From Solobacterium sp. (GTDB lineage Bacteria; Bacillota_I; Bacilli_A; Erysipelotrichales; Erysipelotrichaceae): a DNA stretch of 64,000 nucleotides. Below are positions 938 through 49,859 of the stretch, piece by piece. Location: the NCBI GenBank assembly GCA_017430925.1, contig JAFRMA010000053.1, positions 1 to 64,000 on the forward strand, read 5' to 3'. Position numbers and translations under genes: made by a program. Position 1 is the stretch's first letter. Every line of letters starts with the position of its first letter. Under the pieces are notes generated by a model. It was not told where the DNA came from. It saw nothing but the letters and a program-made list of their open reading frames with translations, and did not search any database.

Positions 938-967
938 TTGACAATAGTTGCATATAACAACTATAAT
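938..967 (+). promoter_or_regulatory. Sigma-A promoter with operator in the spacer
   Basis: A perfect TTGACA (938-943) and a perfect TATAAT (962-967) are separated by 18 bases. The spacer and the start of the -10 box are occupied by a perfect inverted repeat, ATAGTTG (944-950), a 7-base centre and CAACTAT (958-964). A repressor bound there would block RNA polymerase directly. It drives the operon that starts at 1018. Confidence 0.8.
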
Positions 968-1017: not shown

Positions 1018-2415
1018 ATGACATTATTGGTTGGTGCCGGCAAGGCAAGTCTGAATCCTACAGAGAAGATGTTACCGTTTCCCAAACCGGCGAAAAGTGA
1101 CTGGGGTATGGAACCGGTCAGCACCTCGGCAATCTACGATGATATGGACTGCCGGGCAATCGCGATAGACAACGGAAAAGACAAGATCTTGTTTGTGACC
1201 TTTGAACTGGGAGGAGTACCCCACATCGAAGACCTGAAAACAATGATTGCTGAAGAAACAGGATATCCGGAAGACAGTATATTCCTCACTGCCACACACA
1301 ATCATACCGGATACCATGATCATAATAACTTCAAGCGTTATACAGAAAACGAAGAGTATTTCACCTGGCTGGCAGAAGTGAAGCGTGTAGAAGCACAGGC
1401 TGCCCTGGATGCTGCGAAACAGGCAGTATCCTCCATGCGTCCGGCAAAATTCGGCTACGGCGAAACACAGAGTTTTGTGAATACCAACCGTGATCTGCAG
1501 ACCCTGGGAGGATACTGGGTAGAAGCCAGAAACCTTGGCGGCTACAGTGATAAGACATTAGCTCTGATCAAGTTTGTGGATGAAGAGGACCATGTGATCG
1601 CCGTACTGATGAACTACGGATGTCATGCGACCTGCTGTTACCTGATGAAGGACTTTGACGGTCTGATGAAGAGCTCCGGAAACTTCAACGGTATCGCTTC
1701 CCGTTTCGTGGAACAGCACTACGGCAACGGATGTGTCGCCATGTGGACAAGCGGAGCCGCAGGAAATGTCAATCCGTTACTGAGTCATGGCCTGCAGTAT
1801 GAATATCCGGATGGATGGACCAGCGCGGTGGATTATCCGGACGGTGTCGGCTGGATGCAGATGGAAAGTATGGGACGCACACACGGGGCAGACTGTGTGA
1901 AGGGAATTGACGCGATCACCAGATATTCCGGACGTATGCCGATCCGTTGCACAAGGAGAACCGCCATGCTACCGGGACAGAAGAAAGTCGCGGATGATAC
2001 CAACAGTTCTTCCGGAACAGCTTTCCGTATGGGAGGCAGGGGAATCAGAAACTATGATGAAGTACCTTACGGTGAGATTCCTCCGGTACCTGCCGGACAT
2101 ACCATGGCAGAAGATCCCGAGAATCCCTGTCCGCTGGATATGGAACTGATCCTGCTTGGCGATATCGCCATTGTACGTGCTAACGCAGAACTGTACGCGG
2201 AAATCGGCAGAGATATGAAAGCCGCATCACCGTTCAAGAAAACCTTCGTGATGACCCATACCGGGATCCGCGGCAGAGCAGGATATATCCTGGATAAGAC
2301 AGCCGCTGAACGCAACGAAAAAGTATTCCAGGCATTCGGGCCGACAAAACCCGGAGCCTGTGAAGAACCGATTCTTCAGACCGAAACCGAAATGTTTGAA
2401 GAAATCATGGAATAG
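1018..2415 (+). CDS. Neutral/alkaline ceramidase-like hydrolase
   Basis: The 465-residue protein resembles the N-terminal catalytic domain of the neutral/alkaline non-lysosomal ceramidase family, zinc amidases that cleave N-acyl bonds. Supporting signs are the early VGAGKASLNP strand, the THNHTG motif near residue 100 in the position of the family's THTHSGP zinc site, MNYGCHATC near residue 200, and SGAAGNVNP near 245, which resembles the conserved N-x-GD-x-SP nucleophile region but is not identical. There is no signal peptide and the length is short for a full ceramidase, so it is probably cytosolic with a different N-acyl or ester substrate. A GTG nine bases upstream is in frame, but the AGGAGAG at 1003-1009 fits the ATG at 1018. 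It heads an operon with MBL hydrolases 12 bases downstream. Confidence 0.65.
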   Translation: MTLLVGAGKASLNPTEKMLPFPKPAKSDWGMEPVSTSAIYDDMDCRAIAIDNGKDKILFVTFELGGVPHIEDLKTMIAEETGYPEDSIFLTATHNHTGYHDHNNFKRYTENEEYFTWLAEVKRVEAQAALDAAKQAVSSMRPAKFGYGETQSFVNTNRDLQTLGGYWVEARNLGGYSDKTLALIKFVDEEDHVIAVLMNYGCHATCCYLMKDFDGLMKSSGNFNGIASRFVEQHYGNGCVAMWTSGAAGNVNPLLSHGLQYEYPDGWTSAVDYPDGVGWMQMESMGRTHGADCVKGIDAITRYSGRMPIRCTRRTAMLPGQKKVADDTNSSSGTAFRMGGRGIRNYDEVPYGEIPPVPAGHTMAEDPENPCPLDMELILLGDIAIVRANAELYAEIGRDMKAASPFKKTFVMTHTGIRGRAGYILDKTAAERNEKVFQAFGPTKPGACEEPILQTETEMFEEIME

Positions 2416-2427
2416 AAGGAGAGTAAT

Positions 2428-3354
2428 ATGCCGACAAATTTATATCCTGTAGTACAGATTCGTAAGGGATTCTGGGAGATTGATGAATTTGAGATCTCCA
2501 GTTGTTTCCTGATTGAGGGATCCGAAAGAGCTCTGCTGATCGATACAGGGCAGGGAATCGGTGATCTGCGCAGCTGTGTGGAAATGCTTACAGACAAACC
2601 GGTAACGGTCGTCCTGACCCATAATCATGCGGATCATATCGGGAATGTTTACCAGTGGGATGAAGTATGGATCCATCCCAATGACAAACCCGGCCTGACC
2701 AGAAAAGACGTAGAACGCGCAAAGAACAGCGCTGCCAAGATTGCGAAACGCCAGAAAGGCTGCTTCGACGGTGTATACAAGATGTTCCGTCTGGAACCGT
2801 ATGACCTGAATGAAGTGCTTCCTTCTCCGGAGAAAGATCTCGTTATCCATGATCTTGCGGACGGAATGAAATTTGATCTCGGCGGAGGACGGATCATCAC
2901 CTGCTATGAATGTTTCGGACACACGAAGGGAGAAGTTGTCTTCCTGGATGAGAAAGAACGTATTCTGATTGCCGGAGATGCCCTGAATTACAATCTCGGT
3001 GTCAGCGCCGTCCCGGTAGAGACCACATTACGTTTCCTGAAGAGATTACAGTCCATGAGTGATAAATATGACTGTATCTACAATAACCACCACGATATGC
3101 GTCCTCTCGGCGCTCCTCTGGATGATGACTGTCTGCCTAACGCAATCGCAATCCTGGAAGATGTCATGAAGGGTATCATCATTCCCGTACAGGAACCGAA
3201 TTTCTGGGGACAGGAACTCTCTCTCTCGCAGGAAGATCTTGAGGCGAACAAGCATCCGAAGATGGGTGACGGCAGACCTTCCAACCGTACAACTCTGCGC
3301 AGAGGCAGAAACTTTGTCGGTATTGATGTAAATAACATCTTAGAGGAGAAGTAA
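2428..3354 (+). CDS. MBL-fold metallo-hydrolase, subfamily A copy 1
   Basis: This 308-residue protein is a metallo-beta-lactamase-fold hydrolase, probably binding two metal ions. The ligands are all present: HNHADH at residues 65-70, H165 in FGHTKGE, D184 in AGDALNYN and a histidine pair at 221-222. The fold family includes glyoxalase II, lactonases and phosphodiesterases, and the sequence does not settle which reaction this one performs. No signal peptide is seen. It is the first of three tandem paralogues that share the opening YPxVQxRxxxWEIDEFE-like strand and the closing RRGRNFVGID-type tail. It starts 12 bases after the ceramidase-like gene with AAGGAGAG upstream and ends 2 bases before copy 2. 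Confidence 0.85.
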   Translation: MPTNLYPVVQIRKGFWEIDEFEISSCFLIEGSERALLIDTGQGIGDLRSCVEMLTDKPVTVVLTHNHADHIGNVYQWDEVWIHPNDKPGLTRKDVERAKNSAAKIAKRQKGCFDGVYKMFRLEPYDLNEVLPSPEKDLVIHDLADGMKFDLGGGRIITCYECFGHTKGEVVFLDEKERILIAGDALNYNLGVSAVPVETTLRFLKRLQSMSDKYDCIYNNHHDMRPLGAPLDDDCLPNAIAILEDVMKGIIIPVQEPNFWGQELSLSQEDLEANKHPKMGDGRPSNRTTLRRGRNFVGIDVNNILEEK

Positions 3355-3356
3355 TC

Positions 3357-4262
3357 ATGGACGGACGTACAACCTTATACCCGATGGTTCAGTTCCGCAG
3401 GGACACCTGGGAAATCGATGAATTTGACTGCGCGAGTTGTTTCCTGCTGATTGGTTCAGAGAAGGCTTTACTGATCGATACAGGTGTTGGTCTGGGAGAC
3501 CTCCGCGGTGCTGTAGAGATGATTACAGATAAACCGGTGATCGTCGTACTGAGTCATAATCACGGGGATCATATCGGGAATGCGCATCAGTTTGAAGAAG
3601 TCTGGATCAATCCTGCGGACAAAGAAGGATTCATTCATTCCACCATGGGTGAAATGATGAAGAGGTATCCTGCACAGATGGCAGTACGCCAGAAGGGCTG
3701 CTTCGAGGGAGTATACAAGATGTTCCGCCTGTATCCGTATGACCTGAATACAGACCTGAAAATCACGACAGAAGAGAATCTGCCGGTAATCCATGACCTT
3801 ACGGACGGCATGCAGTTTGACCTGGGAGATCGTGTAGTTACCGCCTATGACTGCCCGGGACATACAGCAGGAGAGATGGTCTTCATTGATTCCAAAGAGA
3901 GAATTTGTATTGCCGGAGATGCTTTGAACTATAACCTGGGTGTCAGTTCACAGCCGCTGGAAAGAACCGTACGTTATCTGAAGAGACTGCAGGATATGTC
4001 TGATCAGTATGACGAGATTTACAATAACCACCATGACTTCCGCGCTCTGGGTGCACCCCTGGATAAGGATTGTCTTCCCAATGCGATCGCTGCCATGGAA
4101 GACGCAGTCAGCGGACATATTGTCCCTGTGACTGTCCCCAACTGGTTTGGACAGGATCTGTTGCTAAGCAGTGATGATAAAGTAGAAAATCCCATGGGCA
4201 GAACATTCATTCAGTGGGGAAGAAACTTTGTGGGTATAGACCCCGGAAATATCAAGGAATAG
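3357..4262 (+). CDS. MBL-fold metallo-hydrolase, subfamily A copy 2
   Basis: This 301-residue paralogue of the preceding gene keeps the metal-binding set: SHNHGDH for the HxHxDH motif, CPGHTAGE, AGDALNYN and NNHHDFRALGAP. It begins only two bases after the stop of copy 1, so translation is probably coupled, with AGAGGAGAAG over the end of copy 1 serving as ribosome binding site. It differs from copy 1 mainly in the segment between residues 90 and 140 and is shorter near the C-terminus. The function is hydrolytic but the substrate is unknown. Retention of every ligand argues that this is an active enzyme and not a decaying duplicate. Confidence 0.85.
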   Translation: MDGRTTLYPMVQFRRDTWEIDEFDCASCFLLIGSEKALLIDTGVGLGDLRGAVEMITDKPVIVVLSHNHGDHIGNAHQFEEVWINPADKEGFIHSTMGEMMKRYPAQMAVRQKGCFEGVYKMFRLYPYDLNTDLKITTEENLPVIHDLTDGMQFDLGDRVVTAYDCPGHTAGEMVFIDSKERICIAGDALNYNLGVSSQPLERTVRYLKRLQDMSDQYDEIYNNHHDFRALGAPLDKDCLPNAIAAMEDAVSGHIVPVTVPNWFGQDLLLSSDDKVENPMGRTFIQWGRNFVGIDPGNIKE

Positions 4263-4274
4263 AGAGGAACACAC

Positions 4275-5231
4275 ATGGCAGAATTAACAAAACTTTATCC
4301 CATGGTTCAGTTCAAGAAGGATACCTGGGAAATTGATGAATTTGACGCAGCGAGTATCTTCCTGCTGGTAGGAACAGAAAAGGCTATGGTCATTGACTGT
4401 GGTATGGGTATCGGTGACCTCAGAGGCGCAATCGAGATGATCACGGATAAACCGCTGGTTGTTGTCATCAGTCACGGGCACATTGACCACACCGCGAACG
4501 CGCGTCAGTTTGAAGAAATCTGGATCAGTCCGAAAGACGCAGATAAACCGATTCCGCAGAATATCGAGAGAAGACGCTGGGATACGATCCGTATCGCGAA
4601 TCGTCAGAAAGGCTGTTTCGAAGGCGTATACAAGATGTTCAAGTTATATCCGTATGATATAAACGTGGATATCCGTGAACCGGGACCGGATGAACCGATG
4701 CCGATCATCCATGACCTGGAAGACGGTATGCAGTTTGATCTCGGCGGCGGACGTATCGTCACAGCATATGCCTGCCCGGGTCATTCCGAAGGTGAATTCA
4801 TCTTCCTGGATGAAAAGACACGCACTTTGTTTGCCGGAGACGCGTTGAACTACAATCTCGGTGTAGGGGCTGTACCGCTGGAAACAACCCTCCGTTATAT
4901 GAAGAGAATGCAGGATCTTTCGGAAAAGTATGATGGTATTTATAACGGTCATCATGACTTCCGTGCTCTTGGGGCACCGCTGGATGATGACTGTCTGCCT
5001 ACCGTGATTGCGATGATGGAAGATGCGCTGGCAGGACATATCGTACCTTGTCAGGTACCGAGTCCCTGGGGACAAGATCTGCAGCTGACCAGTGAACCGG
5101 TAAATGTCATGGCACAGGCACCGGGAATGATGCCGGGAACGAAAGAAACACGCCCGCAGAGGGTGATGTTAAGAAGAGGACGTAATTTCCTGGGAATCAA
5201 TCCGGAGAATCTCTACGAAAAGAAAGACTGA
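4275..5231 (+). CDS. MBL-fold metallo-hydrolase, subfamily A copy 3
   Basis: This 318-residue member of the same subfamily has SHGHIDH as its HxHxDH motif, CPGHSEGE, AGDALNYN and NGHHDFRALGAP, so its metal site looks intact. It differs from copies 1 and 2 by the insertion MAQAPGMMPGTKETRPQ just before the conserved LRRGRNFLGI tail and by IDH in place of ADH/GDH in the first motif. It starts 12 bases after copy 2 with AGAGAGGAA upstream. The three genes are transcribed with the ceramidase-like hydrolase and with the oxidoreductase that follows 35 bases on. Confidence 0.85.
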   Translation: MAELTKLYPMVQFKKDTWEIDEFDAASIFLLVGTEKAMVIDCGMGIGDLRGAIEMITDKPLVVVISHGHIDHTANARQFEEIWISPKDADKPIPQNIERRRWDTIRIANRQKGCFEGVYKMFKLYPYDINVDIREPGPDEPMPIIHDLEDGMQFDLGGGRIVTAYACPGHSEGEFIFLDEKTRTLFAGDALNYNLGVGAVPLETTLRYMKRMQDLSEKYDGIYNGHHDFRALGAPLDDDCLPTVIAMMEDALAGHIVPCQVPSPWGQDLQLTSEPVNVMAQAPGMMPGTKETRPQRVMLRRGRNFLGINPENLYEKKD

Positions 5232-5266
5232 TTCTTTCCTGCATATCACGGACAAAGGAGCACACA

Positions 5267-6355
5267 ATGAAAAACACAAACAATCACAAGAAGATCCGGA
5301 TCGCGTTCTGCGGACACCGCGGACATGTCGATAAGTTCGCCCGGATGGTCAACTCGTATCCGGAGAGTGAAGCAGCCGGTTTCTGGGACGACGAACAACC
5401 GGAACAGGCAAAACAGTTCGCTGAACAATTCTCCTGCCGGTACTATGAAACATACACTGATCTGGTGCAGGATCCGGAGGTTGACGGTCTGGTGATATCC
5501 ATGACGAATAACCGGAATACGGAATTGATCCTGCAGGCAGTCCATGCGGGGAAATCCGTGTTTGTGGAGAAACCGTTGTGTATGGATCCCGAAGATGCCT
5601 ACGCGGTACGCAGGGCAGTAAAGGAGAAGAACGTCAAGTTCTTCATGACTGATCCGTTTGTAGATCCGGGAATCATGTGGGCTAAGACCATGTTATCTTC
5701 CGGAAAACTGGGAAAGCTGCTGTCTGTACGCTGCCGATTCCACAACGAGATGTACCACGGTATCGTTAAGAGTGAAGAACATATGCGGTACCTGGCAGAA
5801 ACCATGGGCGGCGGTATTATGGCAGATACCGGGAATCATCCTGTACATGCGGTCACCTATCTTCTGGGGATACCGGAGCGTGTATACGGAACAGCCGGAT
5901 ATCTGGATGAAACAGCCAGGTCTTGTGGATTTGATCAGTTTGCGACTGTCGTATACCACTATCCTGAAGATGTGACCGCGACATTGGAGATCGGATTTGT
6001 GGCTCCATCCGTTAGTAACGCGTTTGAGATCCATGGTACAGGCGGCTCAATCCTGTATCGTGGCTTCGCACATAAAGGTGACCGGGAACTGAAGTACTGC
6101 CTGGTGAAAGATGTACATGAGAATCCGGAATGGGTCACGGTTATGGAAGAAGAACTACCTCCGCAGCCGGATGATCATATCCGTTATTATGTACGTATGC
6201 TGGCAGAGGATATCCCGAACGAGCAGGTTGGTATAGATCCGGCCAGTGTACACGGAGTAAGTCTGGATACAGCGGTATCCATGGTAGAACTCTGTAAGGC
6301 ATTCTATGATTCAGCGGAATCCGGCAGTGCGGTAAGGGTACAGGATAAGATCTGA
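5267..6355 (+). CDS. Gfo/Idh/MocA family oxidoreductase
   Basis: The 362-residue protein has an N-terminal Rossmann domain (IRIAFCGHRGHVDKF, with an altered glycine pattern) and the family hallmark EKPLCMD near residue 105, whose lysine is the usual catalytic residue. An alpha/beta substrate domain follows, including GGGIMADTGNHPVHAV, where the histidine of DTGNHPVHA is in the family's usual proton-transfer region. Enzymes of this family oxidise or reduce hydroxyl groups of sugars, inositols and related compounds with NAD(P). It is the last gene of the first MBL operon, with AAAGGAG 8-9 bases upstream of the ATG. Its presence suggests the pathway includes a redox step on a hydroxylated substrate. 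The substrate is not predictable here. Confidence 0.85.
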   Translation: MKNTNNHKKIRIAFCGHRGHVDKFARMVNSYPESEAAGFWDDEQPEQAKQFAEQFSCRYYETYTDLVQDPEVDGLVISMTNNRNTELILQAVHAGKSVFVEKPLCMDPEDAYAVRRAVKEKNVKFFMTDPFVDPGIMWAKTMLSSGKLGKLLSVRCRFHNEMYHGIVKSEEHMRYLAETMGGGIMADTGNHPVHAVTYLLGIPERVYGTAGYLDETARSCGFDQFATVVYHYPEDVTATLEIGFVAPSVSNAFEIHGTGGSILYRGFAHKGDRELKYCLVKDVHENPEWVTVMEEELPPQPDDHIRYYVRMLAEDIPNEQVGIDPASVHGVSLDTAVSMVELCKAFYDSAESGSAVRVQDKI

Positions 6356-6393
6356 TACAAGTTTCTCGATATAGGAAAAAAGAATAGAGATAG

Positions 6394-6433
6394 ATAAAGT
6401 ATATCTTTGATAGATATACTTTATTTATATAAT
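6394..6433 (+). promoter_or_regulatory. Promoter overlapped by a 12-bp inverted repeat
   Basis: ATAAAGTATATC (6394-6405) and GATATACTTTAT (6413-6424) form a perfect 12-base inverted repeat around the 7-base centre TTTGATA. A TATAAT (6428-6433) follows, and the centre supplies a possible -35 TTGATA at a short 15-base spacing. This looks like a repressor site over the promoter of the four-gene MBL operon at 6473. It could also act as a weak terminator for the upstream operon, because the stem is followed by TTATTT, but the stem is very AT-rich. Confidence 0.6.
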
Positions 6434-6472
6434 GGTGGACCAGGTTTTACCAAAGAGAAAGGAAAGATAATT

Positions 6473-7507
6473 ATGGGAATCAGAGAGCCTTTAGTGCATG
6501 AAATTGCTGAAAAAGTCTGGCTGATCAATGAGTTCGGAAGCAATAACATGTACGTGATCGAAGGCACGGAAAGAGCGCTTGTCGTAGACGCAGGAACGAC
6601 ATACTGCAACTTCCGGGCAATTATCGAGTCATTGACTGACAAACCGTACGATGTGGCTGTAACACATGCGCATCCGGACCATGTCGGTATGATGCACCAG
6701 TTTGAAAAGATCTATATCCATAAGAATGAACTGGGTATAGTCAAAGATCCGGAAGAGGAAGAAGCGGATAAGATTGCCGCATCCCTGGGCAGATCCTCCG
6801 TGAAGAGCCTGCCGAAAGAAGACAGAAAGAGATGGAGTCTTCTGTTACGTGACGGTCAGATGAGTGAAATGTTCTATAACTGCACAAGTTATGATGTGGA
6901 TATGAGCGGTTTCAACATGGTGGATAAGCTTGACCCGGATGCTCCGGAAGTATGGGAATGCACAGAAGAGATGATCTGCAGAGGAGACTATGATACCGAA
7001 CTGATTTTCATTGATGAAGGGTATGAGTTCGATCTGGGAGACCGGAAGGTAATGACCATGTTCCTGCCTGGACATACAACAGGACACCTGCTGTTTATCG
7101 ATCCGAAGTCCAGAATCGCGTTTACCGGTGATTGTGTCAATATGAATAACGGTTCCAGTTTCCATGCCGCAAGTACACATATTCGTTACCTGCAGAAGTT
7201 CCTGGCTGAATACGGAAAGAGCTATGACCGGATCTTTACCGGACATACTACCTACGGCAGACGCCTGAACTTCGAAAGTGAACCTGTACAGGTTGTAGAG
7301 AATCTCGTGGAAGCGTACCGCGCATTACTGAGAGGCGAAGCAGAGATCGTTGAGCAGGCGTTCCACCTGTTCCCGGACGGACCGAAGAGAAAACTCGTGG
7401 TTTATGGTACAGACGCACCGTTCAGCCACTTATCCAAGAACCCGCGTGTAACCCCGCAGGTACCTCCGAAACTCTGGGAAGACGGAGAAGAACATATTAT
7501 TCCGTAG
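6473..7507 (+). CDS. MBL-fold metallo-hydrolase, subfamily B copy 1
   Basis: This 344-residue protein opens the second MBL array. It has HAHPDH, LPGHTTGH, FTGDCVNMNNGS and FTGHTTYG, so the dinuclear metal site of the fold is complete. Subfamily B differs from subfamily A by the HAHPDH motif, the NNGS(x)FHAASTHIRYL segment and a conserved C-terminal tail ending LWEDGEEHIIP. An ATG 66 bases upstream is in frame, but the start at 6473 is chosen because the next residues (MGIREPLVHEIA) align with the other copies and AGAAAGGAA precedes it. This copy has a long charged insert near residues 90-125 (KDPEEEEADKIAASLG) absent from copies 3 and 4. The substrate is unknown. Confidence 0.83.
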   Translation: MGIREPLVHEIAEKVWLINEFGSNNMYVIEGTERALVVDAGTTYCNFRAIIESLTDKPYDVAVTHAHPDHVGMMHQFEKIYIHKNELGIVKDPEEEEADKIAASLGRSSVKSLPKEDRKRWSLLLRDGQMSEMFYNCTSYDVDMSGFNMVDKLDPDAPEVWECTEEMICRGDYDTELIFIDEGYEFDLGDRKVMTMFLPGHTTGHLLFIDPKSRIAFTGDCVNMNNGSSFHAASTHIRYLQKFLAEYGKSYDRIFTGHTTYGRRLNFESEPVQVVENLVEAYRALLRGEAEIVEQAFHLFPDGPKRKLVVYGTDAPFSHLSKNPRVTPQVPPKLWEDGEEHIIP

Positions 7508-7516
7508 GAGGCAGAC

Positions 7517-8536
7517 ATGAGTAAATTACGTGAACCATTAGTAACAGAAATCGCCAAGGGTGTATGGCATATCAACGAACTGGGATTGAATTCCATGTAT
7601 GTTATTGAAGGTACGGAAAGATCTCTGGTTGTGGATGCGGGATCCGGATACTGTCATTTCCGGGAGATCGTGGAATCTCTGACAGATAAACCCTACGATG
7701 TCGCGATTACTCACGCACACCCGGATCATATCGGTATGTGCCGTCAGTTTGAGCGTGTGTTTGTGAACCGGAAAGAACTGGGAAGAATACGTAAAGAAGG
7801 TGAAGATGCCGGATTTGCGCCTCCTGGTATGGGCGGGCCGTTCGTGGACAGTCTCCCGACAGAACCAAGCAAGCGTCTGAGTGAACTGGAACGTGACGGT
7901 CAGATGAGCGGTATGTTCAAACGCTGCACACAGAAAGAATACGATATCAAGGACTTCTTCCTGGTCTATAACCAGCATGTAAAATATTACGATACCTGGG
8001 AGATCAGTGAAGATATGATCTGTAAAGGTGATTATGATACAGAACTGGTATTCATTGATGAAGGATATGAATTTGATCTCGGTGACAGAAAGATCAAGAC
8101 GATGTATCTTCCGGGACATTCCGCAGGACATCTGCTGTTTATTGATCCGAAATCCAGAATCGCGTTTACCGGTGACTGTGTTAATGGAAATAACGGCTCA
8201 GGCATTCATGCCGCAAGCACACATATCCGCTATATTGAGCACTTCCTGGAAGAATACGGAAAGTCCTATGACCGTATCTATAACGGTCACTGCTCCTACG
8301 GTGGTACATTCAGCTCCAGTAGTGAAGATATTCGGGTAGTACGCAATTTAGCTGACGCATACCGCGCATTGCTGAAAGGCGAAGCACAGGTCGTGGAAAT
8401 GGCTTCTCACTTATTCCCGGACGGGCCAAAGCGCAAGGTCGTCATCTATGGTGACGGCACAAAAGAGAATCCGCGTGTTACACCGGGTTGTCCGCCGAGA
8501 CTCTGGGAAGAAGGAGAAGAGCACATAATACCATAA
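7517..8536 (+). CDS. MBL-fold metallo-hydrolase, subfamily B copy 2
   Basis: This 339-residue paralogue starts 9 bases after copy 1 with TAGGAGG directly upstream. The metal ligands are present in HAHPDHIG, LPGHSAGH, FTGDCVNGNNGS and YNGHCSYGG. Its insert near residues 90-120 is glycine- and proline-rich (FAPPGMGGPFVDSLP), unlike the acidic insert of copy 1, and it has an extra segment (KDFFLVYNQHVKYYDTWE) before the second half of the fold. The last motif carries a cysteine (GHCSYGG) where the others have threonine. The C-terminal tail is shortened but keeps LWEEGEEHIIP. It is probably an active hydrolase with its own substrate range. Confidence 0.83.
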   Translation: MSKLREPLVTEIAKGVWHINELGLNSMYVIEGTERSLVVDAGSGYCHFREIVESLTDKPYDVAITHAHPDHIGMCRQFERVFVNRKELGRIRKEGEDAGFAPPGMGGPFVDSLPTEPSKRLSELERDGQMSGMFKRCTQKEYDIKDFFLVYNQHVKYYDTWEISEDMICKGDYDTELVFIDEGYEFDLGDRKIKTMYLPGHSAGHLLFIDPKSRIAFTGDCVNGNNGSGIHAASTHIRYIEHFLEEYGKSYDRIYNGHCSYGGTFSSSSEDIRVVRNLADAYRALLKGEAQVVEMASHLFPDGPKRKVVIYGDGTKENPRVTPGCPPRLWEEGEEHIIP

Positions 8537-8545
8537 GGAGGAAGT

Positions 8546-9514
8546 ATGAAGATCAGTCAACCCTTAATTCATGAGATCGCCGAACGTACATGGTTTGTGG
8601 ATGAACTAGGCACAAACGCCATGTATATTCTGGAAGGATCCGAACGCTCCCTGGTCATCGACGCAGGTACAGGCTACTGCAACTTCAAGGCAATCATTGA
8701 AAGTATTACAGACAAACCCTACGATGTGGCAATTACCCACGCACACCCTGATCATGTCGGTATGATGCATGAATTTGATCAGATCTATATCAACAGACTG
8801 GAACTGGACGGCGAAACCATTCCCACCGAAGACCGTAAGAAATACAGTGATCTTGTCAAGGATGGTCAGGTCGGTGAAATGTTTGCGCGCTGTGTCGGAC
8901 CAATTAAGGCAGAAGGCTACTTCTTCAAAATTGCCAGACAGCATGTCGGTTACTGGGATGTATGGGAACCGAAAGATGAATATATCTGCAAGGGAGATAA
9001 GGATACGGAACTGATCTTTATCGATGAAGGTTATGTCTTTGACCTGGGAGACCGTAAAGTCAGTACGGTATTCCTGCCGGGTCATACAAAGGGACATCTG
9101 ATCTTTATTGATGATATGACCAGGATCGCCTTTACCGGTGATGCGGTAAACCACAACAATGGTTCACGTTTCCATGCCGCAAGTACGCATATCCGCTATC
9201 TGCTTCATTTCCTGGAAGGCTATGGCAAGACCTATGACCGTATCTTCAACGGACATACGTCCTACGGAGGGACCTTTAGTTCTTTCAGTGAACCGATTGC
9301 GGTTGTCTATAACCTGGTAGAAGCTTACCGGGCATTACTCCGCGGAGAAGCCCACACGGAAGTCAGACCGGTTCATATCGATCCTTCCCGTACAGTAGAA
9401 CTTGTTGTCTATGGTACAGATGCGCCGAACAGCCGTTTAAGCAAGAACCCGGTCGTTACTCCGAATGTACCCCCAAGACTCTGGGAAGACGGGGAAGAAC
9501 ATATTATCCCGTAA
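8546..9514 (+). CDS. MBL-fold metallo-hydrolase, subfamily B copy 3
   Basis: At 322 residues this copy has a compact loop (LELDGETIPTEDRKKYSD) where copies 1 and 2 carry longer inserts. HAHPDHVG, LPGHTKGH, FTGDAVNHNNGS and FNGHTSYGG give the full set of metal ligands. AAGGAGG lies 5-6 bases before the ATG, and the gap to copy 2 is 9 bases. It is most like copy 4: several blocks are identical in protein, and one block (9008-9084) is almost identical in DNA. The C-terminal segment VVYGTDAPNSRLSKNP is shared with copy 1, which argues for common descent of all four and possibly exchange between them. Confidence 0.83.
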   Translation: MKISQPLIHEIAERTWFVDELGTNAMYILEGSERSLVIDAGTGYCNFKAIIESITDKPYDVAITHAHPDHVGMMHEFDQIYINRLELDGETIPTEDRKKYSDLVKDGQVGEMFARCVGPIKAEGYFFKIARQHVGYWDVWEPKDEYICKGDKDTELIFIDEGYVFDLGDRKVSTVFLPGHTKGHLIFIDDMTRIAFTGDAVNHNNGSRFHAASTHIRYLLHFLEGYGKTYDRIFNGHTSYGGTFSSFSEPIAVVYNLVEAYRALLRGEAHTEVRPVHIDPSRTVELVVYGTDAPNSRLSKNPVVTPNVPPRLWEDGEEHIIP

Positions 9515-9526
9515 GGAGGAATATCT

Positions 9527-10492
9527 GTGTATATCACCAAGCCAATTATCAACGAAATTGCGGAACGCACATGGTTCATCAACGAATTCGGACATAACGC
9601 GATCTACGTGCTGGAAGGTACGAAAAGATCTCTGGTCGTAGACTGCGGAACAGGTTTCTTTGACTTGAAAAAAGTCGTGGAATCCCTGACGGATAAACCA
9701 TACGACGTTGTTGTTACACACGCGCATCCTGATCATGTCGGGTTAATGCACCAGTTTGACCAGATCTACATCAATCGTCTGGAACTTGATGGTGAGACCA
9801 TTCCCACAGAAGACCGCAAGAAATACAGTGAACTTCTGGCAGATAACCAGGTAGGTCCGGGATTTCAGCGCTGTGTAGGACCTCTGACCGCAGATAAGTA
9901 CGCAATGATCTGGAACCAGAAGATTGGGTTCTACGATGTTTGGAAACCCCTGGAGGAAGATGTTGTCCGCGGTGATAAGGATACCGAACTGATCTTTATC
10001 GATGAAGGGTATGTCTTTGACCTGGGAGACCGTAAAGTCAGTACGGTATTCCTGCCCGGTCACTCCAAGGGAGGAATGATCTACATTGATGATCTCACCA
10101 GAATCGCGTTTACCGGTGATGCGGTGAATTTCAACAACGGCTCAAGTTTCCACGCCGCAAGTACGCATATCCGTTATCTGCAGCACTTCCTGGAAGGATA
10201 CCGCAGAACTTATGACCGGATCTATACCGGACATACGGCTTATGGGGGAAGCTTTGATGCCTATTCTGAAGATATCTCGGTTGTACGTAATCTGATTGAA
10301 GCGTACAGAGCACTGCTGAGAGGAGACGCTGTAACCGAAGAGAGAGCACGTCATACCAATCCCAATGGTCCGAAGTTTAAGATCGTGATTTACGGAAATC
10401 CTGACCGGAGCCGTCTGAACAAGAATCCTCTGGTTACCCCTCAGGTACCTCCCAGACTCTGGGAAGACGGGGAAGAGCACATCATCCCTTAA
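9527..10492 (+). CDS. MBL-fold metallo-hydrolase, subfamily B copy 4
   Basis: The last gene of the array encodes 321 residues from a GTG start with AAGGAGGA upstream. The motifs are HAHPDH at residues 65-70, LPGHSKGG, FTGDAVNFNNGS and YTGHTAYGG. LPGHSKGG has glycine where the other copies have histidine after the ligand-bearing GHS/T, but that histidine is not a metal ligand. It shares the short loop LELDGETIPTEDRKKY with copy 3. A strong terminator follows at 10503, closing the operon. Like its neighbours it has no signal peptide or membrane segment, so all seven MBL enzymes should act in the cytosol. Confidence 0.83.
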   Translation: MYITKPIINEIAERTWFINEFGHNAIYVLEGTKRSLVVDCGTGFFDLKKVVESLTDKPYDVVVTHAHPDHVGLMHQFDQIYINRLELDGETIPTEDRKKYSELLADNQVGPGFQRCVGPLTADKYAMIWNQKIGFYDVWKPLEEDVVRGDKDTELIFIDEGYVFDLGDRKVSTVFLPGHSKGGMIYIDDLTRIAFTGDAVNFNNGSSFHAASTHIRYLQHFLEGYRRTYDRIYTGHTAYGGSFDAYSEDISVVRNLIEAYRALLRGDAVTEERARHTNPNGPKFKIVIYGNPDRSRLNKNPLVTPQVPPRLWEDGEEHIIP

Positions 10493-10502
10493 GTGAAGAA
10501 AG

Positions 10503-10540
10503 ACAGGTGATACACATTTGTATCATCTGTTTTTACTTTT
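10503..10540 (+). terminator. Terminator of the second MBL operon
   Basis: ACAGGTGATAC and GTATCATCTGT pair over 11 bases with one G-U pair around ACATTT, followed by TTTTACTTTT. Confidence 0.85.
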
Positions 10541-10561: not shown

Positions 10562-10603
10562 AACAGATATCTGTTCACATGGAGTGAGTTTCAATGGTAT
10601 ATT
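10562..10603 (+). promoter_or_regulatory. Promoter region with palindrome before MATE gene
   Basis: AACAGATATCTGTT (10562-10575) is a perfect 14-base palindrome. Downstream a TGGTATATT (10595-10603) looks like an extended -10 element, with a poor TTCACA 18 bases before it. The palindrome would sit over the -35 region and could bind a dimeric repressor of the exporter gene. Confidence 0.45.
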
Positions 10604-10651
10604 AATTAAACTGTTATATGATGAAACTGAAGAGAAAGGTAAGAGGTGTAT

Positions 10652-12127
10652 ATGAGTACAAAGAAAATGGTAAAAACTTACCTGGATGAAGTTCCGTGGG
10701 GGACAGAAGAATTTCTGGCAGCGGAGGAAAAGAAATCTAGAAAAGAACGGAAAAAACTGCCGGAAGGCTGTGAGAGTACAGTACTCTACAAAGATATCAT
10801 GCGTATTGCGTGGCCTTCCCTGGTTGAACAGTTACTGACAAGTCTTGTCGGTATGGCGGATATGATCATGGTTGGCTCCATGGTCAACGGTGATGACGCA
10901 ATCTCCGCCGTCAGTCTGGCGAACCAGCCGAAGTTTATCTTTATCTCCCTGATGATCGCGCTAAACGTCGGTGTTACCGCAGCGGTTGCCCGTGACCGTG
11001 GTGCCCAGCAGCACGATCAGGCGAATAAGACATTACTGCAGGGCCTGTATATGGGTATCTGGGTCTATATCTTCTCTTCCGTGATGGGATTCATCTTTGC
11101 CAGACCGCTGGTACGCTTCATGGCTACCTCGGCGCTGAGTGATGAGATCGTGGATATGGGTACAACCTATATGAAGATACAGATGCTTGGGTTTATCACC
11201 ATGGGTATTGCCGGTTCCATTACCGCGGCATTACGTGGTGTAGGTAACTCGCGTTCTCCGATGATCTACAACATTACTGCCAACCTGGTGAATATCGTTG
11301 GTAACTATCTGTTGATCAACGGTCACTTCGGCTTCCCTGCTTTAGGTGTAGCAGGTGCTTCCATAGCGACAGTGATCGGTCAGATCGTGGCGATGATCAT
11401 CGCCTTGAGAGTTGTCGGTTCCGGCAAGCATTACTTCAAGATCAGTCTTCTGGACTTCTTCCGCGGTTTCAAGGTGGATATGAACGCGATCAGCCGTATT
11501 GTCAAGGTTGGTATTCCTTCCCTGATCGAACAGGGGATCATGCGTGTTGGTATCATCCTGTTCTCCAGACAGGTCGCTTCCCTTGGTCAGCCGTACTACG
11601 CGACACACCAGATCTGCATGAACGTACAGTCTCTGTCCTTCATGTTAGGTATGGGTATTGCGGTCAGTTCTACGACCTTGGTTGGCCAGAGTCTTGGTAA
11701 GAAACGTCCGGATATGGCAGAGCACTACTCTACCAGGTGTATGCGTCTTGGTTTGGCAATGTCGGTATTGCTTGGCTTGTTCTTTGCGTTCTTCGGCAAG
11801 TATGTTGTAGGTCTCTACAGCGATACGCCGGAAGTAATTGCCGCATCTATCCCGGTCATGTGGATCGTCGGCGCCTTACAGCCTGCCCAGACTCCGCAGT
11901 TCATTCTCTCCGGTTCTCTGCGTGGTGCCGGTGCCACCAAGGCAACTGCAATTATTACGCTGGTCGGTGTATTGATCATGCGTCCGGTTGTCGGTCATAT
12001 CGCAATCAATGTGCTGAAGTGGGGTCTGCTTGGTGCCTGGACAGCGGTAGCCTTTGACCAGATCGCAAGATCTGCACTGGTTATTGCCATCTATAATAAA
12101 GGTGACTGGAAGAAGATCGTTGTTTAG
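10652..12127 (+). CDS. MATE family multidrug/metabolite exporter
   Basis: This 491-residue integral membrane protein has the twelve-helix, two-fold repeated architecture of MATE transporters, which expel cationic or other organic compounds using a sodium or proton gradient. Typical signs are IAWPSLVEQLLTSLVGMADM at the first helix, the ALRGVGNSR loop near residue 190 and its counterpart SLRGAGATK in the second half. An N-terminal tail of about 45 hydrophilic residues (KKSRKERKKLPEGCE) precedes the first helix. A GTG two codons upstream is in frame, but the ATG is better spaced from AAGAGG. It follows the MBL operons with its own promoter and terminator. A role in exporting a product or the inducing compound is an inference from position only. 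Confidence 0.9.
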   Translation: MSTKKMVKTYLDEVPWGTEEFLAAEEKKSRKERKKLPEGCESTVLYKDIMRIAWPSLVEQLLTSLVGMADMIMVGSMVNGDDAISAVSLANQPKFIFISLMIALNVGVTAAVARDRGAQQHDQANKTLLQGLYMGIWVYIFSSVMGFIFARPLVRFMATSALSDEIVDMGTTYMKIQMLGFITMGIAGSITAALRGVGNSRSPMIYNITANLVNIVGNYLLINGHFGFPALGVAGASIATVIGQIVAMIIALRVVGSGKHYFKISLLDFFRGFKVDMNAISRIVKVGIPSLIEQGIMRVGIILFSRQVASLGQPYYATHQICMNVQSLSFMLGMGIAVSSTTLVGQSLGKKRPDMAEHYSTRCMRLGLAMSVLLGLFFAFFGKYVVGLYSDTPEVIAASIPVMWIVGALQPAQTPQFILSGSLRGAGATKATAIITLVGVLIMRPVVGHIAINVLKWGLLGAWTAVAFDQIARSALVIAIYNKGDWKKIVV

Positions 12128-43451: not shown

Positions 43452-44798
43452 ATGGATCTGTTGGAAAAGAAGATGCTCGGGATCATTGATGAGCATCGGG
43501 AAGAGATCATTGAATTTGGACGTGATATCTGGAAACACGCGGAGTTGGGATACAAGGAATTCCGTACGGCAGGTAAGTTCAAGGAAGCCATGGCATCCAA
43601 TGCGGAGACCGTGGAAGGACTTGCGATCACCGGTGTGAAATCCTATCTGAAACCCCGTAAAGAAGGCGATATCAATGTCTGTCTGATGGGCGAACTGGAT
43701 GCCTTGCCGATCACCAATCACAGAGATACGAATCCGGAGACCGGGGCTGCGCATTGCTGCGGACATAATTCACAGATTACCGGACTGGTAGGGGCGAAAT
43801 TTGCTCTGGAAGATCCGGAAGTACAGGAAGCCCTGGGAGGCAATGTTGTCTTCTTTGCCGTTCCTGCCGAAGAGTATGTAGAAATCGAGTTTAAGAACAA
43901 ACTGATCGAAGAAGGAAAGATCAGTTACGGCGGCGGTAAATGTGAACTGATCAAGATCGGTGCCCTGGATGATATTGATGTTACGGTAGGTCATCATACC
44001 GATCCGGCCTGTGACGCGAGAATCAGTAACAGTGTAACCAACGGCTTTGTGAATAAGACAGTATTATTCAAGGGTAAGGCTTCCCATGCGGCAGGTGCTC
44101 CGGAAAACGGTGTGGATGCGCTGGCAGCCAGAGATGTGGCAGTTATGGCACTGAATGCGCAGAGAGAAACATTCCGTGACAAAGATGCGGTAAGAGTCCA
44201 TGGCTTTGTGTCCCGCGGCGGTGAAGCGATGAATGTCATTGCGGATACCGTAACGATGGAATATTCCGTGCGTGCGAATAATGTTCCGGCATACCAGAAT
44301 GCCAGTGAAAAGTTTGACCGTTCCATGAGAGCCGGTGCGGTAGCTCTGGGTACCGGGTGTGAAATCGTTACCCTGCCTGGTTATCTGCCGACAATCCCGC
44401 TGGAAAACGTAGATGTCATGGCTGAAGCGATCCAGGATGTCATGTCCTGTTATGACTACAAGAATGTGGATCTTGAACGGCATACACCGGCAACGACAGG
44501 TTCCACCGATTACGGTGATCTGTCATCCCTGATCCCGTTATTCCAGTTTAAGACCGGTGGTTATGTGGGAGAACTGCACAACGTGAATATGGATCCGGTG
44601 GATGAAGAACTGGCATATGTTGTTACAGCGAAGATCTTTGCGCTGATGGCTTACAAACTGCTGAAAAACAACGCGGAAGAAGCCAGAAAGACCAAAGCTT
44701 CATTTACACCTTTGTATACCAAGGAATCCTATTGTGAGCTTATGGATTCTCTGAGTAAGAAGGAAGTTATTGAACCTAATCCGGTAAAACCATTGTAA
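43452..44798 (+). CDS. M20 family amidohydrolase
   Basis: This 448-residue protein is a metal-dependent amidohydrolase of the M20 type. Likely metal-site regions are MGELDALP near residue 79, CCGHNSQ near 100, PAEEYVE near 140 and GHHTD near 180, followed by the inserted dimerisation domain (KGKASHAAGAPENGVDA). M20 members include N-carbamoyl and N-acyl amino-acid hydrolases. In this operon an N-carbamoyl-L-cysteine or N-acyl-cysteine substrate would make sense, but this is inference from the neighbours. GGAGAG precedes the ATG. The next gene is about 100 bases downstream. Confidence 0.88.
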   Translation: MDLLEKKMLGIIDEHREEIIEFGRDIWKHAELGYKEFRTAGKFKEAMASNAETVEGLAITGVKSYLKPRKEGDINVCLMGELDALPITNHRDTNPETGAAHCCGHNSQITGLVGAKFALEDPEVQEALGGNVVFFAVPAEEYVEIEFKNKLIEEGKISYGGGKCELIKIGALDDIDVTVGHHTDPACDARISNSVTNGFVNKTVLFKGKASHAAGAPENGVDALAARDVAVMALNAQRETFRDKDAVRVHGFVSRGGEAMNVIADTVTMEYSVRANNVPAYQNASEKFDRSMRAGAVALGTGCEIVTLPGYLPTIPLENVDVMAEAIQDVMSCYDYKNVDLERHTPATTGSTDYGDLSSLIPLFQFKTGGYVGELHNVNMDPVDEELAYVVTAKIFALMAYKLLKNNAEEARKTKASFTPLYTKESYCELMDSLSKKEVIEPNPVKPL

Positions 44799-44897
44799 CG
44801 ATCTTCAGAGGGGAGAAAGGAGGATAAAAAAAGAACACTGAAGAAAGAACAATGCAATAAATCATAGTCTAAGTGAAAGGAGACAATTAATAATCAT

Positions 44898-45620
44898 ATG
44901 ACTGCTGAATATAAGGCGTTGTCAAACAGCATGATAATGTGGATCGCATGTCTTCCTGGTGTAGCGATCGTTATTTATCAGGCGTATCTGATTTTCAAGA
45001 AATCAAAAGACGACGCGGTAAGAATCGGTTTGAGCAAGAATCAGGTTAGTGCTTCGATTCGTTCCGCGGCAATTACTTCCATTGGACCGTGTCTGGTGAT
45101 GATCACCGCTATGTTAGCGCTGATGATGTACGATGGTGCACCATTTGCCTGGCTGCGTACAAACTTCATCGGTTCAATCACCTATGAATTACAGGGTGCT
45201 CAGTTTGCGGCTGACGGTATCGGTATTGAACTGGGAAGCGCGCAGATGGACGCCAACTTCCTGGCTACCGCATGTATCGTAGAAGCCGGAGGCTGTGTGG
45301 GTTGGGTTATCTTCTCGGCACTGTTCTCTGACCGTATGGAAGTCGTACAGGAAAAGCTGGCCGGCGGAAATATGAACGCAGTTCCGATTATCGGTACAGG
45401 CGCGCTGATCGGCGTGTACTGCTCCCTGACTGTTGACCGTCTGATCCCGTTCAAGACACAGGCGTTTGGTGTATTTGCCGGTGCTATTGCGATTACCTTA
45501 CTGACACTGTGGGACAGAAAGAATCCGAAACAGTGGGTTAAGGAATGGGGTCTTACCATCTGCATGATTATCGGTATGTTTGTATGTACAGTCATCGATA
45601 TCATGAATGGAGTTATTTAA
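44898..45620 (+). CDS. DUF5058 family membrane protein
   Basis: The 240-residue protein has about six membrane helices and resembles the DUF5058 family, uncharacterised proteins often found with amino-acid hydrolase genes. NSMIMWIACLPGVAIVIYQA is the first helix and GIELGSAQMDANFLATACIV a polar loop typical of the group. With the following membrane protein it probably forms a two-part importer. The start codon is doubtful: AAAGGAG is 17 bases from the ATG, longer than usual, and an ATT at 44886 would be better spaced. Just before it, 44799-44897 contains a second GGAGG followed by the three-codon frame ATG CAA TAA, without an obvious role. Confidence 0.72.
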   Translation: MTAEYKALSNSMIMWIACLPGVAIVIYQAYLIFKKSKDDAVRIGLSKNQVSASIRSAAITSIGPCLVMITAMLALMMYDGAPFAWLRTNFIGSITYELQGAQFAADGIGIELGSAQMDANFLATACIVEAGGCVGWVIFSALFSDRMEVVQEKLAGGNMNAVPIIGTGALIGVYCSLTVDRLIPFKTQAFGVFAGAIAITLLTLWDRKNPKQWVKEWGLTICMIIGMFVCTVIDIMNGVI

Positions 45621-45632
45621 GGAGGATATGAC

Positions 45633-46331
45633 ATGAATAACGAACAACAGAATATTTATAAGAATGAGTATCTTCCCTATATCGTACGTGTAGGTAAAAT
45701 TACCAGCTGGCTGTCTCTGCCGCTGATCTTTATCCCTGCGCTTGTCGTAGTCATCTTCTTCGGCGCAAGACCGGATGCCGGTGGTGTTATTACAGGTCTG
45801 GTCGGACTGTGTTCCGCGATGTTAGCCTGGTATATCGTTGACCCGGTTACCTTATATCCGATCCTGCATATTCCAGGCATGTATATGACATACCTCTGCG
45901 GAAACTCGAAAGAAATCCGTGCTCCTGCCGCTACTGCAGCATTATCTGCCGCAGGTGTTGAAGCAGGTACAGAACATGGTACGATCGTTGCCGGTATCAG
46001 TATCGCGATTTCCATCTTTATTTCTGTAGGTACAATGACACTCGTTGCCATCCTCGGTAATGCGATCCTGGCAGTTCTGCCGCAGACAGTACTCCATGCG
46101 CTGAACTACCTGTTACCTTCCCTGTTCGGTACGATGTGTATGCAGAGAATTCTTCTTGACCCGAAGTCTTCCCTGATCATTCTGCCGATTTCCATCGCGT
46201 TAAAGTTCTTATCAATGAATGGATTCTTCAAGTTCCTGCCGTTTGGCGGTGGTTATGCACAGATCCTGCTTTGCGTTATTGCCGGAGTTATCGTGGCGAG
46301 AATCGTACATAAGGATAAACTGAAAGCGTAA
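45633..46331 (+). CDS. Membrane protein, partner of DUF5058 protein
   Basis: This 232-residue protein is almost entirely hydrophobic, with six or seven helices and the segment LCGNSKEIRAPAATAALSAA in a loop. I do not recognise a named family, but it begins 12 bases after the DUF5058 gene with AAGGAGG and ends just before the hydrolase gene, so the two membrane proteins likely work together as a transporter for the operon's substrate. Neither has an ATPase or binding protein nearby, so transport would be secondary. Confidence 0.65.
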   Translation: MNNEQQNIYKNEYLPYIVRVGKITSWLSLPLIFIPALVVVIFFGARPDAGGVITGLVGLCSAMLAWYIVDPVTLYPILHIPGMYMTYLCGNSKEIRAPAATAALSAAGVEAGTEHGTIVAGISIAISIFISVGTMTLVAILGNAILAVLPQTVLHALNYLLPSLFGTMCMQRILLDPKSSLIILPISIALKFLSMNGFFKFLPFGGGYAQILLCVIAGVIVARIVHKDKLKA

Positions 46332-46356
46332 ATACATACAGATAAGGAGAATAAAC

Positions 46357-47052
46357 ATGGTTAATTTCAACGAGAAAGTACATGCCTATATCGCCGCGAA
46401 GTATTATGTCTATCTGACAGAAAGATTCGGTGACAGAGGTAAGAGAGCATTTATTCACGGTACACAGTATTACGCAGAACAGAGAGGCCGCAGAATGGCT
46501 CAGAGAGCGATTCGTGACGGCAGAGAACTGGATTTCGGTACTTATCAGGAATATGGTGAATGGGTAAATACTCCGTATACCATTGAGAACGGATGGTCCA
46601 ACCAGTCTACAGTACAGAGCTGGTCACCGGATCTTGAACTGAAGATCACAAGATGCCCGTGGCATACACAGTTCAAGGAAATGGGTCTGGTTGAAGCAGG
46701 TCATACATACTGCGCTCACCTGGATAACTCGATCTGCCGCGGATTCAATCCGTATATTACCTATGATGTATTACAGACACTGCATAAGTCAGATTTCTGC
46801 ACACATATCATCCGTAATGTAAACTTCGCAGAAGGCGAGAAACATCCGAAGAAGACAGAATACCTGAAAGACTGGGATTATCATTGCGCTCATTCCTTCT
46901 ATGCGTACGGAGAAGTCACAAAGGCGATCTTCCAGGCTGAAGGTGAAGATGTAGTTAATCAGGTTTTGAAAGATTTTGCGGAAGACTATGGTCAGGAGAT
47001 GGCTGATATCCTGGTGAAGTTCAGGGAGACAAACTTCAACGTTTGTGATTAG
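46357..47052 (+). CDS. L-2-amino-thiazoline-4-carboxylate hydrolase family protein
   Basis: The 231-residue protein belongs to the ATC hydrolase family. Typical signs are AKYYVYLTERFGDRGKRAFI, EITRCPWH-like LELKITRCPWHTQF, and YCAHLDNSICRGFNP with conserved cysteines. In Pseudomonas this enzyme opens the ring of 2-amino-thiazoline-4-carboxylate to carbamoyl-cysteine; in Bacillota the family is broad and most members are untested. AAGGAG lies before the ATG. It is followed after three bases by the cysteine desulfidase gene, which gives good support for cysteine as the product. Confidence 0.78.
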   Translation: MVNFNEKVHAYIAAKYYVYLTERFGDRGKRAFIHGTQYYAEQRGRRMAQRAIRDGRELDFGTYQEYGEWVNTPYTIENGWSNQSTVQSWSPDLELKITRCPWHTQFKEMGLVEAGHTYCAHLDNSICRGFNPYITYDVLQTLHKSDFCTHIIRNVNFAEGEKHPKKTEYLKDWDYHCAHSFYAYGEVTKAIFQAEGEDVVNQVLKDFAEDYGQEMADILVKFRETNFNVCD

Positions 47053-47055
47053 CTG

Positions 47056-48324
47056 ATGGGCTGTCATTACAAAGTCTACGTTGACATACTTAAAGAAGAA
47101 CTGATCCCTGCTATGGGATGTACAGAACCAATCTCGCTGGCATACGGCGGTGCCCTGGCAAAGGATTTCCTGGGTGGTGAAACACCGGTGAAGGTGACTG
47201 CCCGCTGTTCACGCAATTTGTTGAAGAACGCAATGTGTGTGAAAGTGCCCAATACAGGAGGAATGATCGGTGTCAAGGCGGCGGTGGTAGCCGGCCTGGT
47301 CGGCGGTGAATCGGCGAGTAAGATGGAAGTTATCTCCCATCTTACGGATGGTGACCGTGAAAAAGTACGTCAATTACTAAATCAGGATATATGTACAGTA
47401 GAAATGCTGGAATCTCCGATACCTCTGCATTACATTCTTGAAGTGCAATCGGAATCTCATGATGTAATCGTAGAGATCAGTCACAAACATACGCATATTG
47501 CGCGTTTATCCGTGGATGGAAATGATCTGGACCTGGAAAGCGGCCAGCTTGTGCAGACAGTACCGGCAGACCGCAGTGTTCTTACTGTTGAAGGAATTCT
47601 GGAGTTTGCGGAAACCGTTGATCTTGAGGATATCCGTGAGGTAATCGGAAGACAGATTCAAGACAATTACACGATTGCGGAAGAAGGGCTGACCGGAAAA
47701 TACGGCGTTGATATCGGGAATCTGATTCTATCGAAGGAAGAAGATACTGTTGAGACAAAGATGAAGGCTTATACAGCGGCTGCATCGGAATGCCGCATGG
47801 AGGGCTGCCCTCTGTCCGTAGTAATCAATTCCGGAAGCGGAAACCAGGGAATTACTTCCTCGGTGCCTGTCGTCGTTTACTGCCGGGAGAATCATCTTCC
47901 GGAAGAAAAGATATACAGAGCCCTAGTATTGTCCAACTTACTGACAATTCACCAGAAAACCGGAATCGGGACGTTGTCCGCGTTCTGCGGTGCAGTATGC
48001 GCATCCATCTCTTCAGCTGCCGCAATAACTTATCTGAAAGGCGGCGGACTGGAGGAGATCTCCGCAACCCTGTCCAACAGTTACGGTGGTATTGCCGGTA
48101 CGATTTGTGACGGCGCAAAAGCCACTTGCGGATTCAAGATCTACAGCGCGTTATCTTCTGCTTTCCTGGCAGGAGAGATGGCACTGCGGACGAAACGGTA
48201 TCCTGGAAATACAGGCATTATCCGTAATACTGTGGAAGATTCTGTCCAGGCAATCGGTAAGCTTGCCCGGGAAGGAATGGTCGATACAGACAAAAAGATC
48301 CTGCAGATCATGCTGGAGGACTAG
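47056..48324 (+). CDS. cyuA: L-cysteine desulfidase, CyuA family
   Basis: This 422-residue protein is of the UPF0597/CyuA type, iron-sulfur enzymes that cleave L-cysteine to pyruvate, ammonia and sulfide. PAMGCTEPISLAYG near residue 18 holds the first cluster cysteine, VKVPNTGGMIGVKAA is conserved, and the C-terminal CGAVCAS and GTICDGAKATCGFK supply the rest. The ATG at 47056 has no ribosome binding site of its own, so it is probably translated by ribosomes finishing the hydrolase gene. It would be the last step of the operon. A strong terminator follows. Confidence 0.88.
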   Translation: MGCHYKVYVDILKEELIPAMGCTEPISLAYGGALAKDFLGGETPVKVTARCSRNLLKNAMCVKVPNTGGMIGVKAAVVAGLVGGESASKMEVISHLTDGDREKVRQLLNQDICTVEMLESPIPLHYILEVQSESHDVIVEISHKHTHIARLSVDGNDLDLESGQLVQTVPADRSVLTVEGILEFAETVDLEDIREVIGRQIQDNYTIAEEGLTGKYGVDIGNLILSKEEDTVETKMKAYTAAASECRMEGCPLSVVINSGSGNQGITSSVPVVVYCRENHLPEEKIYRALVLSNLLTIHQKTGIGTLSAFCGAVCASISSAAAITYLKGGGLEEISATLSNSYGGIAGTICDGAKATCGFKIYSALSSAFLAGEMALRTKRYPGNTGIIRNTVEDSVQAIGKLAREGMVDTDKKILQIMLED

Positions 48325-48857: not shown

Positions 48858-48868
48858 AGGTGTACAGG

Positions 48869-49849: not shown

Positions 49850-49859
49850 GGGGATCCGT

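Follow-up and report, generated by a model that had tools for sequence, protein, structure and literature searches.

Seven tandem metallo-beta-lactamase-fold hydrolase genes with a ceramidase-like partner in Solobacterium: a possible catabolic operon for imported conjugates

What might a bacterium do with seven related metallo-beta-lactamase (MBL)-fold hydrolases encoded almost back to back? The question is raised by a 64,000-nt stretch of DNA from Solobacterium sp. (the window, to which all coordinates refer unless a locus is named), which forms the start of contig C72 in a 2.70 Mb draft genome. A reading made from the sequence alone had reported seven tandem MBL-fold genes at 2428 to 10492, three of subfamily A and four of subfamily B, all with their metal ligands in place. 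Both statements were borne out. The seven open reading frames are intact, lie head to tail on the + strand, and each match PF00753 (Lactamase_B) with E values of 1e-11 to 3e-19. The full dinuclear ligand set (HxHxDH, His, Asp, and His) is present in 7/7 proteins, with columns H65, H67, D69, H70, H165, D184, and H221 (A1 numbering) invariant. The genome holds 39 PF00753 matches per 2.70 Mb, so that ~0.12 would be expected per 8 kb and chance clustering of seven is excluded. Identities are 57-65% within subfamily A, 58-70% within subfamily B, and ~30% between the two; the array thus comprises two subfamilies, each duplicated in place, and not a single series. The MBL genes are part of a larger unit, which starts upstream at a co-directional ceramidase-like gene that the sequence-only reading had missed (12 bp ahead of A1) and includes a Gfo/Idh/MocA family oxidoreductase gene. 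The unit consists of nine co-directional genes (one ceramidase-like, seven MBL-fold, and one Gfo/Idh/MocA). In a scan reaching close relatives only, MBL-B3 was 99% identical in a 'Solobacterium' metagenome-assembled genome from sheep duodenum.

The ceramidase-like protein scored 32.8 bits against the PF04734 profile (cut-off 32.1), and the neutral ceramidase 2zws was matched by profile with E 1.3e-13. Its structural model (mean pLDDT 78.7) superposed on 2zws with Z 28.1 over 380 residues, the next unrelated match having Z 4.3. It shares the catalytic-domain fold of the neutral ceramidases of P. aeruginosa (2zws) and human (4wgk), over 380-396 residues with Z 27-28, but is only 15-16% identical to them and has ~465 residues rather than ~650. 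The C-terminal domain of the full-length ceramidases is absent, the protein stopping at PaCD residue 488 of 646. The zinc ligands of PaCD, which we take to be His97, His204, Glu411, and Tyr448, align by profile with H97, H206, E394, and Y426; the two histidines and the tyrosine are kept in 23/23 relatives, and E394 is Glu in 20/23 and Asp in 3. No signal peptide was evident in the protein. Its gene may start at GTG 1009 or ATG 1018, the latter having the better-spaced ribosome site. We call the protein ceramidase-like only, as ceramide hydrolysis is an activity predicted from its family. A further difference from the neutral ceramidases is the presence of many paralogues (~11) in this genome together with partner MBL genes; 9 of the ceramidase-like genes are clustered with MBL genes from the same lineage (on C112, C72, C12, and C110). 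On C110 (L038:2735-6134), three tandem genes of ~375 aa lie downstream of an MBL gene and a ceramidase-like gene; the one scanned has no Pfam match, and two homologues adjoin the same genes in genome G148 (L081).

The two families keep company across genomes. A profile of the seven MBL proteins matched 5/273 genomes of the family at E 1e-40, in 1/60 genera, and the ceramidase-like profile reached E <1e-100 in just these five genomes (5/70 of the genus), with one further family genome at 1e-56 and nine more at only 1e-15 to 1e-26. By these strong matches, the ceramidase-like family and the MBL lineage follow one another from genome to genome. In a 392-genome sample of the phylum, only this genome was matched by the B profile at 1e-25. 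By rpoB, G167, G200, and G162 are nearest, G148 being known from a fragment only, and the five genomes probably form one clade. In the sister species (G167), the array gene order is identical, split over contigs C88 and C9 (L075; L074/L001). G162 has A1 next to A2 at a contig end, with A3 elsewhere; in G200, a ceramidase-like gene is followed by B1-B2. In G148, the same flanks (an oxidoreductase gene on one side, MATE-nusG on the opposite side) enclose only remnants, a 5' portion of the outer ceramidase-like gene and a 3' portion of a single B gene, and we read this as loss of the array by deletion. An A-type copy in G162 (L079:7078-8025), near Dpp transporter genes, retains 2/7 ligand residues (RHARHSS) and is probably no longer a metallo-hydrolase. 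A mobile or viral origin was rejected: viral contigs gave weak MBL-B fragments of 28-34% and none for the ceramidase-like protein. A plasmid origin was likewise rejected, since plasmids gave only distant relatives of <30% identity.

To judge whether the expansion reflects selection, as the sequence-only reading had proposed, each gene was compared with its counterpart in G167. The ratio of nonsynonymous to synonymous substitution rates (dN/dS) was 0.013-0.070 for A1, A2, and B1-B4 and 0.027 for the ceramidase-like gene, and synonymous distances (dS) between array paralogues ranged from 1.5 to saturation. The copies are thus old and each is constrained, which supports purifying selection, as opposed to decay. 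In a maximum-likelihood tree, each array member paired with its own G167 orthologue except A3, which in G167 is split by a contig end and was omitted; the window A3 paired with a G162 gene. Separate orthologues of A1, A2, and A3 were found in G162, and of B1 and B2, with their order kept, in G200. By this tree, the duplications are old and common to other species. Neutral expansion, in which tandem-duplicated copies would differ little in function, could draw on the tandem layout, the G162 copy that lost most of its ligands, the array deletion in G148, and a broken ceramidase-like gene elsewhere in this genome. For the window array, however, it is already contradicted by the dN/dS of 0.00-0.07 found for all copies, by the saturation of dS from one copy to another, and by orthologues kept across species, and we give it almost no credence.

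Known activities were then considered for the MBL proteins. Assignment to GloB was rejected (TIGR03413, 46 bits versus a cut-off of 200.8), as were class B beta-lactamase (core model, ≤35.9 bits versus 100) and the SoxH-related equivalogs, whose scores were well under cut-off. The B3 model superposed on known MBL structures with Z 17-19; the fold search was meant to name a substrate, and no single closest family stood out. With the MBL-fold metallo-hydrolases GloB, LACTB2, ST1585, TTHA1429, and PqsE, the array proteins share the fold, HxHxDH, a further His, the bridging Asp, and the last His; unlike them, they have a family-specific insertion, the B proteins also a conserved C-terminal tail, and they occur as seven tandem copies. 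B1-B4 are 40% identical in the insertion (residues 91-165, with 20/75 columns gapped) and 63-75% identical elsewhere, the pattern that would be seen with different substrates but a common chemistry. PqsE entries headed the Foldseek list, which would suit lactonases or PqsE-like thioesterases acting on diffusible signals, in quenching or signaling. Many other MBL families nevertheless matched equally well, no gene for a signal synthase or receptor lies nearby, and for one signal, seven paralogues together with a ceramidase-like protein and an oxidoreductase would be excessive; we regard such a role as very unlikely.

The control elements offer further clues. One strong promoter precedes the unit and one terminator-like hairpin closes it (Table 1). 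Between the promoter hexamers lies an inverted repeat, AGTTG-N7-CAACT (946-962), a putative repressor operator, and promoter and repeat are both conserved in the sister species. Our scans for this repeat and for catabolite-responsive element (cre) sites covered 1.17 Mb of fetched loci (redundant). The repeat was found only at the array promoter and ahead of MBL-B5 (on C12, and on C88 of the sister), so the two units may have a common regulator. Intergenic gaps in the array are 2-35 bp, except for 117 bp ahead of B1, where a perfect hairpin may act as an attenuator, operator, or RNA-stability element. For B1 itself, ATG 6473, preceded by AAAGGAAAG, is a more likely start than TTG 6407. The sequence-only reading had divided the genes into two operons, which is uncertain; the single strong promoter and single terminator, together with the conserved hairpin in the long gap, fit a single unit that has a control point inside it equally well.

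A second array places the same enzyme families in a more informative setting. Six MBL and 5-6 ceramidase-like genes lie in tandem on C112 of this genome, C48 of G167, and C5 of G148, with the order conserved in the three species. It differs from the window array in having a different MBL clade, upstream cre sites, and an HxDxDH paralogue, and in following genes for galactokinase (GalK) and aldose epimerase (GalM). Consensus cre matches, TGWAANCGNTNWCA, were found 41-113 bp upstream of this array in all three species and ahead of a ROK-ceramidase operon in G148, and elsewhere in the scanned loci there was only one more distinct site, near a LysR gene on C9; these matches suggest catabolic control. 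This paralogue (L033:11138-12103, L086:12924-13811, and L083:11673-12626) is without HxHxDH in all three species, Asp replacing the second His; it reads HADFDH in this genome, and the G167 alignment likewise has Asp there, so that the altered metal site is conserved. In this genome, a frameshift splits one ceramidase-like gene of the C112 array (L033:9657-11008), and of the four that G167 and G148 have at this place, one is missing; the relatives have intact copies. On C33 (L036:6250-9361), three more distant MBL-fold genes lie in tandem, with Asn in place of the last ligand His; this triplet adjoins two alpha/beta-hydrolase (Abhydrolase_10) genes, esterase genes, and an FGGY sugar kinase gene.

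Other related loci have similar neighbors. Three of the genome's four ROK kinase genes adjoin ceramidase-like or MBL genes or lie close to them, and two of the three appear to belong to operons. In two genomes, GH1 genes adjoin MBL singletons or lie close by; Dpp importer genes adjoin MBL-B5, and SBP_bac_5 genes flank an MBL singleton. Distant PF04734 relatives occur on plasmids of Caulobacter, Agrobacterium, Alteromonas, Pantoea, Klebsiella, and Enterococcus; their neighbors are mostly genes for carboxylesterases or prolyl-oligopeptidase-type hydrolases, and several of these loci also have glycosidases, a sugar transporter, a beta-glucoside PTS, or Gfo/Idh/MocA genes. The GalK/GalM and FGGY kinase genes near the sister genes would suit glycolipid breakdown, and homology, fold, and retained ligand positions link the ceramidase-like protein to neutral ceramidase, so it might deacylate ceramides or glycosylceramides, and the sphingoid or N-acyl lipids set free would then be substrates of the MBL enzymes. 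Against such lipid turnover, the ceramidase C-terminal domain is absent, no secretion signal is evident, and the distant PF04734 relatives lie in glycoside or aromatic clusters and not in sphingolipid clusters. We consider it improbable.

Downstream of B4 follow a MATE gene, nusG, a second MATE gene, and ribosomal protein genes. The first MATE gene, 153 bp from the array, invites a detoxification reading, in which the MBL enzymes inactivate lactone or amide plant toxins or antibiotics and the exporter removes the remainder; the MBL fold, another MATE gene adjoining an MBL singleton on C86, and the inverted repeat within the promoter, suggestive of ligand-responsive repression, agree with it. 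The MATE gene, however, lies behind the terminator with its own promoter-like site and stays beside nusG in G148 despite the loss of the array. The low beta-lactamase scores given above, the lack of an evident export signal at the N-termini, and the cre sites and GalK/GalM genes of the C112-type array also argue against detoxification, which we hold to be unlikely, if somewhat less so than lipid turnover.

We favor, with a probability of about 0.42, a cytosolic catabolic hydrolase operon for imported sugar/acyl conjugates, in which the MBL enzymes have several specificities. The sugar/acyl assignment draws on the neighboring GalK/GalM, ROK and FGGY kinase, GH1, Dpp importer, and esterase genes and on the contexts of the plasmid relatives. 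The substrates would be a family of conjugates, most likely derived from plants. After import, the ceramidase-like enzyme and the seven dinuclear-metal MBL enzymes would act in the cytosol, cleaving N-acyl, ester, lactone, or thioester bonds by means of metal-activated water in both families, with zinc presumably as the metal, and the Gfo/Idh/MocA enzyme (under all NCBIfam equivalog cut-offs) would then oxidize or reduce the released sugar-like product. Given the shared catalytic chemistry and the differing substrate-facing insertion, each paralogue would probably take another member of one compound family. Expression would be set at the one strong promoter with its inverted repeat, presumably by a repressor.

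Several points weigh against this proposal. The MBL fold by itself is not predictive of chemistry, and the best structural matches were divided among beta-lactamases, LACTB2, PqsE, and chlorothalonil dehalogenase. The neighborhood evidence is consistent as a catabolic picture but post hoc; for the window operon itself, no consensus cre site was found upstream and no transporter gene lies within it. Because the five genomes are probably close relatives, the co-occurrence of the two families does not represent five independent events. Other points weaken the sequence-only reading, which took the MBL genes as the whole system. Ligand conservation, complete in the array, has exceptions in the wider lineage (the G162 copy with 2/7, the C112 paralogue with Asp, and the C33 triplet with Asn). 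The array order is the same in G167 and partial, scattered (G162), or deleted (G148) elsewhere, so that the singly scattered homologues named by the sequence-only reading as a refuting observation were partly found outside G167.

Table 1. Features of the array unit and its immediate surroundings in the 64,000-nt window.
Feature	Position	Strand	Remarks
Promoter TTGACA-N18-TATAAT	938..967	+	12/12 consensus; upstream of ceramidase-like gene
Ceramidase-like zinc hydrolase (predicted)	1018..2415	+	short PF04734 protein, 465-468 aa; Pfam 32.8 bits, fold match 2zws
MBL-fold hydrolase A1	2428..3354	+	308 aa; dN/dS 0.070
MBL-fold hydrolase A2	3357..4262	+	301 aa; dN/dS 0.049
MBL-fold hydrolase A3	4275..5231	+	318 aa; dN/dS 0.000 and 0.039 (two pieces)
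Gfo/Idh/MocA family NAD(P) oxidoreductase	5267..6355	+	362 aa; PF01408, PF22725; between A and B genes
17-bp perfect hairpin	6391..6430	+	in 117-bp gap before B1; stem identical in sister species, loop diverged
MBL-fold hydrolase B1	6473..7507	+	344 aa, ATG start; dN/dS 0.018
MBL-fold hydrolase B2	7517..8536	+	339 aa; dN/dS 0.046
MBL-fold hydrolase B3	8546..9514	+	322 aa; AlphaFold model pLDDT 88.6, MBL fold; dN/dS 0.013
MBL-fold hydrolase B4	9527..10492	+	321 aa, GTG start; dN/dS 0.030
Terminator-like hairpin	10499..10534	+	after B4, closes unit; near-identical in sister species
MATE-family exporter	10646..12127	+	promoter-like site at 10574; neighbor, membership in system uncertain

Other genes of the window were noted in passing. 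At the contig start, a RelB-type antitoxin gene lies on the minus strand (343-615), with no toxin gene in view. A cluster at 43452-48324 encodes an amidohydrolase/peptidase, two membrane proteins (one DUF5058), an ATC-hydrolase-like protein, and an SDH_alpha (cysteine desulfidase-like) protein, and looks like thiazoline or cysteine catabolism. A D-2-hydroxyacid dehydrogenase gene adjoins that of LarA lactate racemase at 48770-51137.

Both superfamilies are already known; their combination and expansion are new as far as the literature was searched, and no described system with such an arrangement was found there, in agreement with the sequence-only reading. We tentatively suggest, as a wider possibility held with less confidence than the catabolic operon, that the short ceramidase-like family and the MBL lineage form a new two-enzyme catabolic module, arrayed in one clade of gut Erysipelotrichaceae. 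If so, each array would cover a spectrum of related conjugates, with chemistry new to both families. More than 20 hydrolase genes of the two families in one 2.7 Mb genome, with the array compared here strongly selected and restricted to one clade, would represent a substantial and so far unassigned metabolic capacity for a herbivore gut bacterium. The paralogues may serve as a natural series in which to map substrate specificity in the MBL fold, and the partnership may provide a lead on the real role of short PF04734 proteins, which are usually named ceramidases.

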